Positions 6,385 through 64,000 of a stretch of 64,000 nucleotides of DNA are shown one piece after another. The DNA lies in the NCBI GenBank assembly GCA_958009055.1, contig OY253662.1, positions 486,210 through 550,209 on the forward strand, in the 5' to 3' direction. Source of the stretch: Choricystis sp. odSpoLacu1. Lineage: Eukaryota > Chlorophyta > Trebouxiophyceae. The first letter of the stretch is position 1. Each line of letters begins with the position of its first letter. A program made the position numbers and the translations under genes. Under the pieces are notes generated by a model, which ran no database searches, had not been told where the DNA came from, and was given only the letters and a program-made list of their open reading frames with translations.

Positions 6385-6425
6385 TTAGGGTTAGGGTTAG
6401 GGTTAGGGTTAGGGTTAGGGTTAGG
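6385..6425 (+). repeat. Interstitial telomeric tract, unit 1 (6 x TTAGGG)
   Basis: Six perfect TTAGGG followed by TTAGG, in the same orientation as the terminal telomere. The left flank (GCGCGCCCGC) is the same sequence that borders the terminal telomere at 63543. Confidence 0.97.
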
Positions 6426-15300: not shown

Positions 15301-15335
15301 TTAGGGTTAGGGTTAGGGTTAGGGTTAGGGTTAGG
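15301..15335 (+). repeat. Interstitial telomeric tract, unit 2 (5 x TTAGGG)
   Basis: Five perfect TTAGGG plus TTAGG, at the same place in the unit. Confidence 0.97.
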
Positions 15336-25257: not shown

Positions 25258-25292
25258 TTAGGGTTAGGGTTAGGGTTAGGGTTAGGGTTAGG
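25258..25292 (+). repeat. Interstitial telomeric tract, unit 3 (5 x TTAGGG)
   Basis: Five perfect TTAGGG plus TTAGG. Confidence 0.97.
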
Positions 25293-34166: not shown

Positions 34167-34201
34167 TTAGGGTTAGGGTTAGGGTTAGGGTTAGGGTTAG
34201 G
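34167..34201 (+). repeat. Interstitial telomeric tract, unit 4 (5 x TTAGGG)
   Basis: Five perfect TTAGGG plus TTAGG. Confidence 0.97.
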
Positions 34202-45437: not shown

Positions 45438-45478
45438 TTAGGGTTAGGGTTAGGGTTAGGGTTAGGGTTAGGGTTAGG
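45438..45478 (+). repeat. Interstitial telomeric tract, unit 5 (6 x TTAGGG)
   Basis: Six perfect TTAGGG plus TTAGG. Confidence 0.97.
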
Positions 45479-54881: not shown

Positions 54882-54922
54882 TTAGGGTTAGGGTTAGGGT
54901 TAGGGTTAGGGTTAGGGTTAGG
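54882..54922 (+). repeat. Interstitial telomeric tract, unit 6 (6 x TTAGGG)
   Basis: Six perfect TTAGGG plus TTAGG. Confidence 0.97.
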
Positions 54923-55041
54923 CTGGGGTGGGGCTGGAGTGGGTGCGCGTGGGGGTGGGAGAGGAGGGGGCGCGCGGGGGGCTCTCTCTCCGTCGCGCCG
55001 AGTGAGAGAGAGCCGTCGAGCACGAGAGAGCGCGGCAGGCG

Positions 55042-55308
55042 GTGCTGCTCGGCGTCGTGGTGCACCTGGGCAGCATGCTGGGGGGGCATTATGTCGCGTA
55101 CGTGCGGCGGGATGTCGACGCCAAGAAGAAGAAGAAGAAAAATGACGAGGACGAGGGTGGCGACGACTCGCCATCCACCACCACCACCACCCAATGTTAC
55201 CGGGCGTCCGACTCGCACGTGGCCGCGGTGGGCGAGGCCGAGGTGCTGGCGTGTGAGGCGTACATTCTGTTGTATGGGCGGGTGGAGGATGAGGTGGAGA
55301 GAGGGTGA
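55042..55308 (+). pseudogene. Ubiquitin-specific protease C-terminal fragment, unit 6
   Basis: Same fragment, VEDEVERG version. Confidence 0.78.
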
Positions 55309-55423
55309 GAGAGAGAGGAGGGGGTTCAGTTTTTCGTTTTGCACGGGGGCCTCTGTTATTGCACAGTGGGGAAAAGGTCGATGGCGGGGTCTGTTGTTGT
55401 TGGGGGGTGTTAGCGGAAGAAGA

Positions 55424-56140
55424 GGGTTTGGCGAGAAGATCGTGCTCAGCCTCAACGCGGTCGGCGCCGTGTTCTCTGCGACCGCGACACAACTCACTGT
55501 CACACTCTCGACGGCGCCGACGAGCACGGGCGCTCTCACCGCCGTGGTTACGTAGTCCGGTACCTCCTCTGGTGCGGCAGTGCAGGTGGCCACCATCGTT
55601 GCCGCGCCGACTGTGACTCAAAACACTGCCAACATTTTACTCAGTGCTGTGCTGAATCGTGGCACGGCCGGCAGTGCGTCCTCAGCGACGGCGACGCAGT
55701 TGACAGTTACTTTTACGACGGCTCCGACGAGCGCTGGCGCGATGACCGCCGTGGACACGTCTTTCGGCGGCGCCAGCGGCTCGACAGTGCAGGTTGCAAC
55801 GGTAGCGACCCAGTTCAATCAACCGGGCCTTTTAACCATTGAGAATGGTGACGCATTCGTGCCAAATTTCGGTGGGAGCTCTGTTTCAATTTGTCAGGTC
55901 AGCGGGACGCCGCCGACGCTCAGTGGGTGCTCCTACTCGGGCAGCGGCTTTTTGCAGCCTGTTGCAATCACTTTGGACGGCTTGGGACATGCGTACATCG
56001 TTAATTTCGGCACTCCTGACATCTCGGTGTGTACCGTCACGGGTTCATCGCCTCCCCCGCTGACCTCCTGCTCAACTTCTGGCAGTGAAGGGTTAGGGTT
56101 AGGTTTTGGTAGGAAAGGAGGCGGCAGGCGGATTATGTAA
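55424..56140 (+). pseudogene. Broken IPT/TIG plus NHL-like gene, unit 6
   Basis: Same relic with the same internal TAG and a final TAA. Confidence 0.7.
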
Positions 56141-56713
56141 CTAACCAAAATTGACAAGTACGCAAAGACGCCAACAATCAAGTTCGCAAAGACGCCAACA
56201 ATCCTCTCGCCCGCCGTTGGGGAGCGGCTGCAGCCCGGTACCCGCCCGTCTGATGAATCGTTGGGGTCATACAGAGCTTGTCGGTGGAAGAGGGATGGAG
56301 TGAGGGGGAGAGGAGGAGTGCTGCTGGGGGTGTGCGCGACGGCGAGGTTGAGAGCGAAACCACAGACGCGTCGACGACGACGACGCACTTTTTCGCTGCT
56401 TGTTGGTCGCCCGCCCTCTGAAACCACGTTTCTGACACCAAATGCACACCCACCTGGCAGTCCGCTCCGTGTGGGCGCCGCTGGCGTGGCGTGGGGGTAG
56501 GGGGGGGTTGCGCGCGGGCAGAGGAGCCAGTGTTAAAACGTGTCCGGCACAACGTGACGAAAACGTGTCGAAAACGTGACAAAACGGGACGAAACGGGAC
56601 GAAACGGGACAAAACATCAACGCAGCGATAGAACAGGACAAAACTCACTCTTCACTGCTGCGTTTTTTGTGGCAACTCGTCTCTGGGTTTTCCTTCCCCG
56701 CACTCAACACGCC

Positions 56714-56752
56714 ATGCTGCCCTTGCTATTCGTCTCCCTCGTGCTGGCGCAG
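56714..56752 (+). other. Orphan signal-peptide exon, unit 6
   Basis: Same 13 codons and GTGAGC donor as in unit 1. Confidence 0.38.
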
Positions 56753-56849
56753 GTGAGCTGGGGCGGGCGTGGTTTTCTGCGTCGAAAGGGGGGGGGGGGA
56801 GGGCGAGAGCGAGATGAATTTCGTTTTGCGCGCGCGCGCGCCCCGGGGT

Positions 56850-57424
56850 TCACCGGCACGCCGCCCGTCCCCGGCCCCACACACGCGACACGAGCTGCAG
56901 GCAGCGGTTTGTGGGGCTGCCTTCATGCGGAGGTGGCTGCGCGCCGCGTGGGGCGCGGCGGCGAGTGTCTTTGTTTTTGGCGCTGTTGTGGTGAGGCGAC
57001 TTCTGCTGCGCGAGCGCGTGGGCGCCGCCAGACGCCACCCACTGGGGCGGGGAGGTGGGGGAGGCGGCGGAGGAGGGGACGTCGGCGCCGCCCTGTGGAG
57101 AGAAGAGGGGAGGGACACAGGGGGGAGGGGGCGGGTGTGTGGGTGCGACGTCGGCCGCACACCACAACTCCCACCCTTCTCTCTCACCAACCCTCAAACC
57201 ATCCTCACCTCCATCTCGCACGGCGCCTCGACATCGGGGGCGGGCGCGGCCTGAGTGAACGGCACCGCCTCACTCACGCCCGCCCGCCGCCGTGGCACGA
57301 TGTTGCCTGCGCCTCCGGCCGTCGCAGCAGGCTCGACGACGGCATCGTCATCCGCGAACGCGGTGTCGCGCTCCCGCTTGCGTGTGGGTGCGGCCGGCGC
57401 GGTGCGGCGGCCGCGCAGCGGCAT
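56850..57424 (-). CDS. Hypothetical two-exon minus-strand gene, unit 6
   Basis: Exons 57424-57209 and 57092-56850; predicted protein identical to unit 1. Unit 7 has no copy. Confidence 0.4.
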
Positions 57425-57686
57425 GGATGTGAGAGCAGAGAAGAGGGGCGGAAACTAGGGGTGGGCGGGGGGCGCCATTGAGGGTGCGTGTGTGTGTGGA
57501 GTGGAGTGGGTGCGCGTGGGGGTGGGAGAGGAGGGGGCGCGCGGGGGGCTCTCTCTCCGTCGCGCCGAGTGAGAGAGAGCCGTCGAGCGCGAGAGAGCGC
57601 GGCAGGCGGTGCTGCGAGAGGAGGCACACCTCGACGCCTCTTTTTGTTTGCTCCTCACTTTCTCCTCCTTTCCCCGGTTTCGGAAG

Positions 57687-58044
57687 GGCCCAGCCTTGGC
57701 GCCAAGCCAGCAGGGGGGGAGGAGGGGGCAGCCCCCCCTGCCCAGCGCGCCGTCGACCGCGGCGGCGGCGACCGCTGCGGCACGGGCGGTGTCGTCGGCT
57801 TTTGTGGTCGGACGTCACCAGGGCTGCTGCCAGGATTTTGGGCGGGGCCTGGTGTCGGCCACCAGCGACACACACGTGTGTGCAGCAGCAGGGGGGGGCT
57901 GCAGGCAAGAGCACTTTGCGCGCAGCGCGTCTTTCGAAAACACTTAGTTACAGTTACAGTTCGTTACAGTTCTTACAGTTCGTTTTCAAACAAAACACCT
58001 TTTGGCGTCCTTTTCCCGCCCTCCACCCCCCAAATCATCCTGCC
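57687..58044 (+). promoter_or_regulatory. Leader/promoter region, unit 7
   Basis: Same elements as in unit 1: palindrome 57695-57706, CACGTG palindrome 57869-57882, TTACAG cluster about 57948-57976. Confidence 0.48.
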
Positions 58045-61000
58045 ATGAAGCTGTCAGGTACGAACAAAGGGCTGGGCAGGGTCAACGAGAGTCGACGTGA
58101 GCGGGGAGGCTGCGGCTTTGCCCGCCAAAGGGGAAGCCGCCCATGCGACGATGTGGGGCCGGCTCGGCGCCCGACAACACACCCCTTTCCCGTACCTTCA
58201 CCCTCACAGCGTGCATGTTGATTGCCCTGATGGCGGCGACTGCGTCTGCGCAGACGGTGAGTCTGAAAATGGTGGGGGTTTGGCTTCCAAAGCGGAGCGC
58301 GCGTGAGGAGCGCGCGCGGAGCGCGAAACTCTGCGACACGCAGTGCGCGGCGTGCAGTCTTGGATTGCATAAAATGCGTTTTGCTACGTCGGTGGGATGT
58401 TGCCGCACGCCGCGCCAGCGGCTGAGAGTTTGCACGCAGTATCGCAAGATGGAGGGGAAACTGCCACCCTGGGGCGCAACAAAGGAAGCTGCCTTTTTTG
58501 CGTGTGTTCAAAAACCACGCCCCCCCTTCCCTCTCTCTGCAGGCCGCCACGCTGGACGCAACCATCGCCAACAAGACGGCCGACGTGCTGGCTGCGGTCA
58601 ACGCTGCAGAGAAAGCGGTGGTGTTCGCGTCGTTGAGCGCCAAGCCTGACATCACTGTCGTGGCGGCGACGCTGGCGGCGTCCAACAATTTAGCCTCCGG
58701 CTCCGCCTTGACGGTGGTTCAACCGTCACCCGCCACGCCGACCGTGCCATCAGGCACCCTGCAGTGCCTGGTGAACGCGGACGGCGTGGTGGTTGGGCTG
58801 GTGGGCAGCAACGGTAAGGGGAACGAGGGGTGGAGAGGGGGCAGTGTGTGTTTTGTTTCTTTTCAACCCCGACCCTCCACTCCCACCCCAAACCCCTCCC
58901 ACCCACAGGCAACTACGCGTGCTCCACCACTGCCGACACGTCCGTGCCCATTCCCATTGGCGACGGCTACATCAGCGGCTTGAAAGTGGCGGTCGCCAAG
59001 GTCGGGCCGCCGTATGTCGGCAAGCTTGTCGTCAGTGTCACGCCTCGCGGCGGCGGCTGGCCCGCCACCTACACGTGCGGTTCGGGGGGCGGCTTGCCTG
59101 TGACTCTGTTGTCGCCCTTGCAAGCGTTGTTGCTCTATGACTCGCGGGTTGGGTGCGTGGGCGCGCCGGCGTCTGGCGGTGGCCGCCGCCGCCTGGCGTC
59201 ATCTGCCACCGCGTTGAACGTGTCCAGCCTGCTGTTGGAGGTGGCCTTGCGTCCAGTGGCGGCTGACGCTCCTGTACCGACTCTTCTGCTGAACGGCGTG
59301 CCAGTGGCCGGGGAGGTGCCGACGCCGACGCCGTCCTCGCCCACCGTCACACCAAGCACAGCCAGCCGCGCCATCAACTCGGCAGCAGCACTGATCATCA
59401 CAGGCTCTGGATTTGACGCCGCGGCAGCTGGCAACGCGGTCACACTCAGCCTTGATGCAGTCGGCAATGTGACGTCGGCGACGTCCAACCGACTCGACGT
59501 CACGCTGACGACGGCTCCCACGAGCGTTGGCTCGCTGACCGCCATCGTGACATCGTTTGGTGTGTCCAGCGGGCCGGCTGTGCAGGTAGCGACCGTCGTG
59601 GCCCCACCAACCGTCGTTGTCAACACGTCCAGCCGTGCCCTAGACGCGCCGACACTCGTCATCGCCGGCACCGGTTTCGACGCGTCGACGCCGTCGGCCA
59701 ACGTGGTGGCCTTGAGCAGCGGCAACGGCACGGTGACGGGCGCGACGCCTACTTCTCTGACCGTCGCGTTTTCCTCGCCGCCGAGCCTTGGCAATCTCAC
59801 GGCTGTGGTGACGTCGTTCGGCGGGGCCAGCGGCGCGGCTGTGCAGGTGGCCACCGTGGTGGCCGCACCGACCGTCGTTGTCAACACGTCCAGCCGTGCC
59901 CAAGACGCGCCGACACTCGTCATCGCCGGCACCGGTTTCGACGCGTCGACGCCGTCGGCCAACGTGGTGGCCTTGAGCAGCGGCAACGGCACGGTGACGG
60001 GCGCGACGCCTACTTCTCTGACCGTCGCGTTTTCCTCGCCGCCGAGCCTCGGCAATCTCACGGCTGTGGTGACGTCGTTCGGCGGGGCCAGCGTCGCCCC
60101 TGTGCAGGTGGCCACCGTGGTGGCCGCACCGACCGTCGTTGTCAACACGTCCAGCCGTGCCCAAGACGCGCCGACACTCGTCATCGCCGGCACCGGTTTC
60201 GACGCGTCGACGCCGTCGGCCAACGTGGTGGCCTTGAGCGGCGGCAACGGCACGGTGACCGGCGCGACGCCTACTTCTCTGACCGTCGCGTTTTCCTCGC
60301 CGCCGAGCCTTGGCGATCTCACGGCTGTGGTGACGTCGTTCGGCGGGGCCAGCGGCGCGGCTGTGCAGGTGGCCACCGTCGTGGCCCCACCGACCGTCGT
60401 TGTCAACACGTCCAGCCGTGCCCTAGACGCGCCGACACTCGTCATCGCCGGCACCGGTTTCGACGCGTCGACGCCGTCGGCCAACGTGGTGGCCTTGAGC
60501 AGCGGCAACGGCACGGTGACCGGCGCGACGCCTACTTCTCTGACCGTCGCGTTTTCCTCGCCGCCGAGCCTCGGCAATCTCACGGCTGTGGTGACGTCGT
60601 TTGGCGGGGCCAGCGGCGCGGCTGTGCAGGTGGCCACCGTGGTGGCCGCACCGACCGTCGTTGTCAACACGTCCAACCTGGCCCAAGACGCGCCGACACT
60701 CGTCATCGCCGGCACCGGTTTCGACGCGTCGACGCCGTCGGCCAACGTGGTGGCTTTGAGCAGCGGCAACGGCACGGTGACGGGCGCGACGCCTACTTCT
60801 CTGACCGTCGCGTTTTCCTCGCCGCCGAGCCTTGGCGATCTCACGGCTGTCGTGACGTCGTTCGGCGGGGCCAGCGACGCGGCTGTGCAGGTGGCCATCG
60901 TCGTGGCCGCACCGACCGTCGTTGTCAACACGTCCAGCCTGGCCCAAGACGCGCCGACACTGGTCATCGCCGGCACCGGTTTCGACGCGTCGACGCCGTC

Positions 61001-62099
61001 GGCCAACGTGGTGGCTTTGAGCAGCGGCAACGGCACGGTGACGGGCGCGACGCCTACTTCTCTGACCGTCGCGTTTTCCTCGCCGCCGAGCCTTGGCGAT
61101 CTCACGGCTGTTGTGACGTCGTTTGGCGGGGCCAGCGGCACGGCTGTGCAGGTGGCCACCGTCGTGGCCCCACCCCCGAAGCTGGCTGCTGTGATTTTTG
61201 GCGGCGGCATCTACACGAGTTCCAACTTTGGCGGGACGTGGACTCCGTCGACCTCTGGTCTACCTGCGTCGGCTTACTGGGGATCGATCACGTCGTCGTC
61301 GGACGGCACGAAGCTGGCTGCTGTGGTTTATGGCGGCGGCATCTACACGAGTTCCAACTCTGGCGGGACGTGGACTCCGGCGACCTCTGGTCTACCTGCG
61401 TCGGGTCTCTGGTATTCGATCACGTCGTCGTCGGACGGCACGAAGCTGGCTGCTGTGGTTATAGGCGGCGGCATCTACACGAGTTCCAACTCTGGCGGGA
61501 CGTGGACTCCGGCGACCTCTGGTCTACCTGCGTCGGCTTACTGGGTATCGATCACGTCGTCGTCGGACGGCACGAAGCTGGCTGCTGTGGTTAATGGCGG
61601 CGGCATCTACACGAGTTCCAACTCTGGCGGGACGTGGACTCCGGCGACCTCTGGTCTACCTGCGTCGGCTTACTGGGGATCGATCACGTCGTCGCCGGAC
61701 GGCACGAAGCTGGCTGCTGTGGTTGCTGGCGGCGGCATCTACACGAGTTCCAACTCTGGCGGGACGTGGACTCCGGCGACCTCTGGTCTACCTGCGTCGG
61801 CTTACTGGGGATCGATCACGTCGTCGTCGGACGGCACGAAGCTGGCTGCTGTGGTTAATGGCGGCGGCATCTACACGAGTTCCAACTCTGGCGGGACGTG
61901 GACTCTGGCGACCTCTGGTCTGCCTGGGTCGGCCAGCTGGCGTTCGATCACGTCGTCGCCGGACGGCACGAAGCTGGCTGCTGTGATTTTTGGCGGCGGC
62001 ATCTACACGAGTTCCAACTCTGGCGGGACGTGGACTCAGTCGACCTCTGGTCTGCCGAGTGACAAGCTCGATTGGATTTCGATCACGTTGTCAGCGTGA
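58045..62099 (+). CDS. Secreted IPT/TIG-repeat plus Asp-box repeat protein, unit 7 (spliced; nearest telomere)
   Basis: Exons 58045-58057, 58210-58256, 58543-58813 and 58909-62099 predict 1173 residues, the shortest copy. There are six 87-residue repeats (345-866) and seven Asp-box repeats identical in protein to unit 6. Exon 4 is shorter than that of unit 6 by 783 bp, which is three repeats. The stop lies about 1.45 kb from the telomere, so a telomere position effect on expression is plausible but not shown. Confidence 0.8.
59610..61175 (+). repeat. 261-bp coding repeat array, 6 copies
   Basis: Six copies, the smallest array of the seven. Confidence 0.95.
61179..62096 (+). repeat. Seven Asp-box coding repeats, unit 7
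   Basis: Seven repeats with the same protein sequence as unit 6 (F, Y, I, N, A, N, F at the variable codon). Confidence 0.85.
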
Positions 62100-62100
62100 C

Positions 62101-62388
62101 ACGAGTTCCAACTCTGGCGGGACGTGGACTCCGGCGACCTCTGGTCTACCTGCGTCGGCTTACTGGGGATCGATCACGTCGTCGTCGGACGGCACGAAGC
62201 TGGCTGCTGTGATTTTTGGCGGCGGCATCTACACGAGTTCCGACTCTGGCGGGACGTGGACTCCGTATGTGCTGGCGTACAAGTCGTCTGTGTGAGGCAA
62301 CATGACCGCGGCGGGCACCGTTAACGAGTACTTGTTTGCCGCCATGTCGGGCGTGAGGTACACGTTCAGCATGAACAACACCTGCTAA
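62101..62388 (+). pseudogene. Out-of-frame C-terminal remnant, unit 7
   Basis: Same sequence and same two stops as in unit 1. Confidence 0.62.
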
Positions 62389-63543
62389 ACAACACGACAC
62401 CCAATTGTGCATAGATCATGTCGACCTCCCTGTGGCTCACGAAACCGCACACATGCCACTGTGGCACCCCCCCTCTCCCCCTTTTTTCGACCCCTTTTTT
62501 TCAAACACCATTTCATGTGTTTTACGTGGCACCCACGACCCGCCCGGCTGGTGCAACAACGCCGGCCAACATCGGCGCGCGTTGTGGTCGTCCTGCTGGA
62601 TGACAAAATCGCGCTACTGGATCGGGGGAACAACCACCCCCCTCCCGCCGTCGTCCTCCCTCCCCCCCCCCCCCCCCGCCCCCTTCCGTCCAGCCTTTGC
62701 TGGAATGAAGGGGGCGGGGGGGGGAGGGGTGGGTGATGGCGACGTACGGCATTTCCCCCCTCCGACCTTTTCTTTCGTTTTAGACCGCACCCTCCCCTCC
62801 ACCCGCCCGCCCCCCTTCCCGCACTTCCCACCCTCCCCCATCCACACGAGGAAAGAGAGTTCTGAACTCTTGTTGCCTTGTTTTTTTTCTTCAAGTTTCA
62901 TCAGTGCCTGGTGCACCAGCCCTGAAATCACTCGACTCTAGCGCGCCACTGTGGCCACCAAGCGGTGTCTGTGTTTCGAGCGGCCTTTTTTTATCAATTT
63001 TGTGTAACGCATGCCCGGCTGCTTTGTGTGGCCGCCAACTGTGCCAACATGAGGGTGCGCCCCCGCGTGGTGGGGCAGGTTTTGTGGCGGGCGTCATTCC
63101 ACAGGTGATGGGCGTGTGTTTTCCTATTTCCTTTGTCACGCCCGGGACGTGGCTCTGGGGTTGAGCGGGTCGGCCGCAGAGGCCGCAGAGAGGGACCACC
63201 ATCAAAACAACAGGATTTTGTTGGTGCAAAGAACGTGGTACGGACGCGACGTCTCTCTCTACGGCTCTGCACCCCCACACTCCACCCACTTCCCCCCCCC
63301 CCCCTCCTGCGCACCCGCGCGCGGCCCTCATCCCACTCTTCCACTGGTCTCGAGTGATACGCACGACTTTGTACCGCCCGCCCTGGCGCGCACACTGGTG
63401 GGTGGCGTTGGTTTGGGGCGGGGCGGGGCAGCAGACGCGCGTGCGTGTGTCTCGCAAGATGGCGACGAATCAGACTGCATCCAACGCGCGGCGCCCCAAT
63501 CGCGGCTCGCTCGCACGCGCGGCGTGCGTCCTTGCGCGCCCGC

Positions 63544-64000
63544 TTAGGGTTAGGGTTAGGGTTAGGGTTAGGGTTAGGGTTAGGGTTAGGGTTAGGGTTA
63601 GGGTTAGGGTTAGGGTTAGGGTTAGGGTTAGGGTTAGGGGTAGGGGTAGGGGTAGGGGTAGGGGTAGGGGTAGGGGTAGGGGTAGGGGTAGGGGTAGGGG
63701 TAGGGGTAGGGGTAGGGGTAGGGTTAGGGTTAGGGTTAGGGTTAGGGTTAGGGTTAGGGTTAGGGTTAGGGTTAGGGTTAGGGTTAGGGTTAGGGTTAGG
63801 GTTAGGGTTAGGGTTAGGGTTAGGGTTAGGGTTAGGGTTAGGGTTAGGGTTAGGGTTAGGGTTAGGGTTAGGGTTAGGGTTAGGGTTAGGGTTAGGGTTA
63901 GGGTTAGGGTTAGGGTTAGGGTTAGGGTTAGGGTTAGGGTTAGGGTTAGGGTTAGGGTTAGGGTTAGGGTTAGGGTTAGGGTTAGGGTTAGGGTTAGGGT
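63544..64000 (+). repeat. Terminal telomere (TTAGGG)n
   Basis: 457 bp of telomeric repeat run to the end of the window, G-rich strand 5'->3' outward, as expected for a right chromosome end. Perfect TTAGGG fills 63544-63633 and 63724-64000. A block of TAGGGG variants lies between them. Confidence 0.97.
63635..63718 (+). repeat. TAGGGG variant block inside the telomere (14 copies)
   Basis: Fourteen consecutive TAGGGG units lie between perfect TTAGGG tracts. The period stays six bases. Variant blocks usually mark the proximal, rarely renewed part of telomeres, but here perfect repeats also lie on the proximal side. Confidence 0.9.

Follow-up and report, generated by a model that had tools for sequence, protein, structure and literature searches.

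A putative tip-derived tandem array with telomeric tracts between its units at one chromosome end of the green alga Choricystis sp. odSpoLacu1

The right end of contig OY253662.1 of Choricystis sp. odSpoLacu1 (C14; 550209 bases) is built of blocks of 9 to 11 kb that closely resemble one another, arranged in tandem and separated by short telomeric tracts. This arrangement raises the question of why the telomere of the chromosome begins at the very base at which the units inside the array have their tracts, and how such an array came into being. We analysed a window of 64,000 nucleotides (C14:486210–550209), the right edge of which is the end of the contig, within a genome of 14593115 bases assembled in 19 contigs, 16 of them large. 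Positions given without a contig name are those of the window. A repeat scan located the following tracts.

6385–6420, + strand: internal tract of 6 TTAGGG, opening unit U2
15301–15330, + strand: internal tract of 5 TTAGGG, opening unit U3
25258–25287, + strand: internal tract of 5 TTAGGG, opening unit U4
34167–34196, + strand: internal tract of 5 TTAGGG, opening unit U5
45438–45473, + strand: internal tract of 6 TTAGGG, opening unit U6
54882–54917, + strand: internal tract of 6 TTAGGG, opening unit U7
63544–64000, + strand: terminal telomere, (TTAGGG)16 (GTAGGG)14 (TTAGGG)46 T, reaching the contig end

The preliminary description had reported six internal tracts of 5–6 TTAGGG, each followed by more unit, and the same sequence to the left of each tract and of the terminal telomere. 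Both statements agree with the data: the counts are 6, 5, 5, 5, 6, and 6, the same 20 bases precede all seven sites in the window, and exact identity extends over at least 252 bp in 21 of the 21 pairs, so that chance is no issue. Left-flank identity reaches 715–929 bp among the sites at 6385, 15301, 34167, and 45438; for the last pair of sites (54882 and 63544) it is 3571 bp. On the right, at least 85 bp are common to the six internal tracts of the window. A further tract of 5 repeats lies to the left of the window at C14:469711, giving seven internal tracts and the tip on C14. The statement that the TTAGGG simply continue to the end requires an amendment, as the sequence is telomeric up to the contig end but is interrupted by 14 GTAGGG after the first 16 TTAGGG. 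GTAGGG blocks inside TTAGGG telomeres, here at 63640–63723, also occur at, for example, C1R, C5L, C8L, C8R, and C13R; the longest has 56 repeats (C8R), and telomerase slippage, copying, and base-calling are candidate sources.

Matches to the last whole unit reach leftward beyond the window to C14:460168.

54882–63543, + strand: last whole unit, U7, 8662 bp

Eight copies of the right end of the unit are present on C14, and its gene has ten copies, with main matches from C14:463972, 473672, 479376, 487390, 496561, 505470, 515427, 524336, 535612, and 545057. A single-copy left part of 4.3 kb occurs in nine copies (one shorter) that are 99.8–100% identical to the last unit, and a single-copy right part of 1.36 kb in eight copies that are 99.7–100% identical to it; mean pairwise substitution is 0.07% and 0.10%, respectively. 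The single-copy sequence common to the units thus amounts to about 5.7 kb with an identity of 99.7% or more, in addition to long repeats. Length differences among the units of the window reflect mainly the count of 261-bp repeats, which ranges from 6.2 to 16.2 copies. In the parts compared, three 261-bp repeats (783 bp), a single substitution, and one base of run length separate U7 from U6, and the repeat regions of the two units have identical sets of 1468 25-mers. Two joints of the array, at C14:479382 and 484032, carry no tract and lie inside the repeat gene, indicating that other rearrangements also happened in the array. Both fall in the region C14:469711–492594, where the composite units (C14:476516–484031), whose joints are inside the repeat gene, include one gene copy with a glycine-rich 3′ end and about 1.1 kb that had no match in the other stretches compared. 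The search of other chromosome ends for the unit, proposed in the preliminary description, located the left edge on C14 only, and the right end on C14 and in one 93–95% identical copy at C12L.

The innermost copy of the unit edge, at C14:460168, differs from all the others. The long frame to its left encodes a UCH domain (E 7.6e-18; extracted locus L039:2450–4219) and continues in frame into the unit, so that the gene passes the joint position as one uninterrupted open frame. In contrast, the seven other copies of the protease edge start in the middle of the gene behind a tract, and U7 retains only the last 87 codons of the UCH protease gene (E 5.6e-9). Because the gene runs whole into the unit there, C14:460168 would be the original place, and on this sequence comparison the unit is read as starting inside a ubiquitin-specific protease gene, with the copy at C14:460168 as the founder. 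The pieces of the tract-bearing joint, as they stand in U7, are listed below.

54918–54934, + strand: 17-base G-rich filler, identical in 7/7 internal joints
54935–55048, + strand: 114-bp insert copied from the unit interior, with a C/T site at 55003
55045–55048, + strand: CTGC common to the insert and the protease gene
55045–55308, + strand: 3′ end of the UCH protease gene, start missing
57502–57615, + strand: interior source of the insert, found in nine places on C14, including the founder unit (462626)

All seven internal joints follow one plan, namely 5–6 TTAGGG, the filler, the insert, the CTGC overlap, and the protease gene. A pattern of 18 bases (15 of the filler and 3 of the insert) has seven exact matches in the genome, all at internal joints, and two further matches with one mismatch, on C3 and C12. 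The insert of U7 is identical to its interior source in 113 of 114 bases. Across the seven joints, it varies at the C/T site alone, which is T beside 6-repeat tracts and C beside 5-repeat tracts in every case. Insert and protease part occur together at the same seven places, whereas the founder has the protease part without the insert; the interior source is present in the founder unit and the joint copy is absent. With the same filler, insert, and CTGC join in 7/7 joints, the tract-bearing joint arose once, from a tip that already carried its telomere, and was copied later.

The orientation of the joint bears on the way it was made. A plain end-to-end fusion would put TTAGGG facing CCCTAA, and the orientation found therefore argues against fusion; neither the window nor C14:456210–486209 contains a run of two or more CCCTAA, as a head-to-head telomere fusion would leave. 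All joint pieces are oriented alike, which is what DNA synthesis primed by a 3′ TTAGGG strand requires. The joint also holds a templated insertion from nearby DNA, as in microhomology-mediated break-induced replication, with the filler at the first switch point and CTGC at the second, although an overlap of 4 bp could be due to chance. The anatomy of the joint is directly visible, and from it we infer microhomology-mediated break-induced replication as the probable cause.

A mechanism in three steps would account for these features. The right arm would have broken and received a telomere, giving an end of the form ...GCGCGCCCGC(TTAGGG)n. This telomere would then have eroded to about 5–6 repeats, and its 3′ G-rich strand could have primed synthesis on the same arm of the sister, or of its own, chromatid. 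Synthesis would have produced a short filler and then a copy of 114 bases that lie within the terminal region, before a template switch at CTGC into the ubiquitin-protease gene, about 8.5–9.5 kb from the end, and copying to the tip. Such an event would be a case of microhomology-mediated break-induced replication and would leave the old telomere behind as an internal tract. In the last step, homologous recombination between units would have multiplied the tip, chiefly by lengthening it and with some exchange within the array. As the repeated unit would be the old chromosome tip including its telomere, the present telomere and all right ends of units would share their start base, which offers an answer to the question posed above. 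We give this account, a single telomere-primed template switch followed by homologous recombination that multiplied the tip mainly at the end, about an even chance of being correct.

Information on the origin of the telomere comes from the other chromosome ends. Among the ends of the 16 large contigs, 31 of 32 are telomeric, the exception being the left end of C14. This set of 16 chromosomes is reminiscent of Medakamo hakoo, which has 16 non-organellar contigs with TTAGGG on their flanks (PMC9871001). One other end carries a homologue of the sequence that adjoins the C14 telomere.

62839–63539, + strand: right end of the unit, 94.9% identical to C12:2626–3328 (706 aligned columns)

The C12L copy has the same direction relative to the telomere and is followed by about 2.3 kb of other sequence before the C12 telomere. 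The alignment stops 4 bp before the C14 joint, from where C12 runs on as non-telomeric sequence. The mark of a de novo telomere, a homologue that continues past the joint, is thus found at C12L. The simplest reading suggests that C14 lost the sequence beyond the joint and was then capped anew, although it may instead be the arrangement on C12 that is derived.

Several other features of the contigs were recorded. At C15L, the telomere lies inside a ubiquitin-protease paralogue that is 82.8% identical to C14:456617–459663. The tips C2R and C6R are 99.85% identical over 5.2 kb, and C4L and C13L 99.5% over 4.9 kb, in both pairs including the first variant telomeric repeats; this degree of likeness may reflect recent copying between chromosome ends. 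With a gene cut by a telomere and long shared tips, the ingredients of the proposed mechanism are seen elsewhere in the genome. C6 encodes a telomerase RNA-binding domain (42.5 bits against a cut-off of 25, and 38.8 bits in a second scan); a scan of a 729-aa slice, which extends past the edge of the C6 locus examined, showed no reverse-transcriptase domain. C17 is exactly 26000 bp long with low G+C at both ends (0.38 and 0.46), unlike the chromosomes, and C19 (91072 bp) encodes a Rubisco large chain of 475 aa. Its best database match is 92% identical, and the named sequences near it come from green plants and algae, Batophora at 90% among them, as expected of a green alga or of a host with a green plastid.

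The order of variants along the array was used to follow its growth. The two single-copy parts have 23 variable columns, nine of which are shared, that is, found in at least two units on each side; the C/T site of the joint makes ten. Five of the ten (L1061, L1097, L1457, L4156, and R1113) change a single time along the array, with the founder state on the inner side; two of these, L1457 and R1113, concern run lengths. Three changes were counted for each of the joint site, L247, L3102, and R434, and four for L1746, which is also a run-length column. Shuffled orders gave so small a number of changes in 0.9% of cases; for the seven substitutions alone, three of which change once, the figure is 1.3%. 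Similarity of the repeat region drops with separation (Mantel r 0.49, p 0.007; 8 units, with the composite units B and B′ omitted). Founder-like states occupy the inner end, and no pair of units is more alike than the two outermost ones. The variant order therefore leans towards growth at the tip, a signal that is weakened by the small number of sites, their linkage, and local exchange, since likeness of neighbouring units also arises from local unequal exchange. Stepwise growth at the tip alone is insufficient, given the five variants that change three or four times. For R434, about 930 bp to the left of the joint, and tract length, each of the four possible combinations is present among the seven joints, so recombination has also fallen within the approximately 0.9 kb to the left of the tracts.

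Each unit carries a gene, the features of which are listed for U7.

55394–55918, + strand: gene remnant, a weak match to the repeats of the unit gene (54% and 46%) with one in-frame TAG
58830–62099, + strand: main open frame of the unit gene
59547–61174, + strand: 261-bp repeats
61177–62053, + strand: 132-bp (44-aa) BNR repeats

The last exon spans approximately 58911–62096, with splice sites judged by eye. The protein contains 87-aa repeats like those of IPT/TIG proteins, followed by the 44-aa BNR repeats. A Pfam scan of the main exon (1062 aa) returned BNR and Sortilin-Vps10, and, without a stretch that passed, F420H2_quin_red and DUF995. Frames in the remnant matched no Pfam family, and an Rfam scan of the window returned nothing at the gathering threshold. 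The unit as a mobile element was considered and rejected, as a Pfam scan of every U7 frame of 110 aa or more (40 frames) detected no reverse transcriptase, transposase, or helicase. Relatives of the repeat gene are found near the C1L, C1R, C2R, and C6R ends and are cut by the telomere at C2R and C6R, which would make it a member of a subtelomeric gene family. In the BNR repeats (61177–62053 and the other units), positions 24, 26, and 42 are filled by 6, 7, and 9 different codons, respectively; of the remaining 41 positions, 33 have one or two codons and 8 have three to five. This count covers 39 repeats of exactly 44 aa (24 distinct), with 15 of 54 repeats of other length omitted. Such a pattern looks like diversifying selection or focused mutation.

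Our likelihoods for the competing explanations overlap, as several readings can hold together. The preliminary description had proposed growth in the manner of yeast Y′ elements, in which an eroded end pairs with an internal TTAGGG tract and copies units to the tip. The separation of the units by tracts and the lean of the variants to the tip agree with tandem subtelomeric amplification of this kind, and the four combinations of R434 with tract length place recombination in the stretch beside the tracts. Pairing at the tracts themselves is unproven: at 30–36 bp, they stand against kilobases of unit homology, which offers far more sequence for recombination outside the tracts, and an exchange is not placeable at a tract. 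Moreover, tract length is tied to the C/T site 86 bp to the right in all seven joints, which points to tracts that were copied through and not extended anew, and a joint of single origin already explains the common start base, which is then no pointer to repeated tract invasion. We therefore consider tract invasion as the motor of the array unlikely. A somewhat better case, though still on the unlikely side, can be made for unequal sister-chromatid exchange with gene conversion, which would have multiplied a single founding duplication without the tip as the site of growth. This process is ordinary for tandem repeats; the joint site, L247, L1746, L3102, and R434 depart from array order, and the region of B and B′ is recombinant. 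It allows founder-like states on the inner side and the greatest likeness between units at the tip but fails to predict them. The alternative named in the preliminary description was that a longer array broke at an internal tract and was re-extended by telomerase. A telomere that starts at the same base would also be expected from such healing, a telomerase domain is encoded, and the C15L telomere lies inside a gene. Yet healing covers the present tip alone and not the array, the 16 perfect repeats do not discriminate, and an unbroken tip would look alike, so healing is unnecessary for the present tip. As the origin of the present end we find it quite unlikely; breakage and healing likely made the original telomere, as the C12 homologue suggests, and in that role they are no true alternative to recombination as the maker of the array.

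Two further readings concern the gene and the assembly. The amplification could have been driven by selection for a larger number, or a greater variety, of repeat-protein copies, a reading that would be compatible with any mechanism. The main matches of all ten gene copies contain no internal stop, and variation is focused in three codons of the 44-aa repeat; against this, repeats may shuffle anyway and the gene may ride on amplification of the tip, and we regard selection as an improbable driver. An assembly artefact, in which units were miscounted or misordered or the telomere was falsely joined, seems less probable still. In its favour, the protein database places 11 array proteins on a contig of 658541 bp, compared with 550209 for C14, and two of the 11 (P0004 and P0008) are absent from C14:456210–550209, the best place for P0008 in the whole genome reaching 99%. 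The 1959-aa protein of U5 was not returned by its own database query, although clustering at 90% might hide it, and the left end of C14 has no telomere. In contrast, nine of the 11 database proteins are found in C14:456210–550209, letter for letter after the first residue, and 31 of 32 large-contig ends are telomeric. Units differ in single-copy sequence as well as in repeat number and are thus no simple looped copy. Another version of the chromosome, with at least two other gene copies, seems to exist; it may stem from genuine variation, from the part that C14 lacks at its left end, or from an error of assembly.

A bolder proposal can be added, which we consider rather doubtful. The array could still be active and growing at its tip in a free-living alga that encodes telomerase, with the telomere-primed template switch, made once, serving as a reserve of homology at the tip. 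Break-induced replication would then lengthen and shorten the array at present, and the number of units would vary between cells or assemblies of one strain.

Arrays in the subtelomeres of Chlamydomonas were reportedly treated by Sultan in 2021. Among the papers listed by the literature searches, no title or beginning of an abstract described an array such as that of C14 in a green alga. C14 preserves a base-level record of the birth of a telomere-flanked tandem subtelomere, with a founder that holds the whole gene, the joint together with the source of its insert, and the series of copies. Arrays of this type are known best from telomerase-null cells of yeast, worm, and mouse, and they are also described in natural yeast and in some mouse and worm strains (PMC13177704, PMC7889907, PMC9071541). 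Since the array resides in an alga with a small genome and an encoded telomerase domain, priming by short telomeres becomes directly testable in normal cells.

Several known systems can be compared with the array. In the green alga Auxenochlorella, a de novo telomere on chromosome B05 has telomeric repeats directly on internal sequence (PMC12633428), one new end where C14 has an array, and interstitial telomeric repeats are described in C. reinhardtii (PMC6549138). Tandem Y′ elements of yeast resemble the array. A telomeric tract is present at 145 of 234 of their tandem junctions (PMC13177704), and in Y′ arrays and Type I survivors, tandem units are amplified by recombination including break-induced replication (PMC13177704, PMC6410037). 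The C14 units are likewise tandem, subtelomeric, and separated by tracts, apart from the two tractless joints. In contrast to Y′ elements, the C14 array consists of a captured tip that includes a protease gene end, lacks a helicase in the 40 U7 frames of at least 110 aa scanned with Pfam, and is confined to one end; given the last two points, it is not classed as a Y′ element.

In anatomy, the array matches TALT and mTALT. In C. elegans, short telomeres prime subtelomeric copying with simple and complex duplications (Seo 2015, Lowden 2011, Kim 2019; PMC9071541), telomere-primed copying has also been proposed for wild strains that have telomerase, about 5% of uncapped telomeres start at existing tracts, and TALT was copied to all telomeres (PMC9071541). 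The C14 joint is unlike worm TALT in its filler and 114-bp templated insert and in an array on one end. In mouse embryonic stem cells, mTALT is a subtelomeric unit of about 7.4 kb, arranged head-to-tail with telomeric borders of uniform direction; local duplication came first and amplification later, with spread to many telomeres in telomerase-null cells, and mTALT is also found after short telomeric repeats in telomerase-proficient strains (PMC7889907). As in mTALT and TALT, the C14 unit is non-telomeric, lies head-to-tail between telomeric repeats of one direction, and can be traced by local duplication to a subtelomeric site, the founder at C14:460168. Unlike mTALT, the C14 array is present at one end of one chromosome, in a genome predicted to encode a telomerase domain. 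By analogy with these systems, the array at C14 probably works like TALT and mTALT and would represent a natural tandem array derived from a chromosome tip, with the stubs of the old telomere retained between its units.
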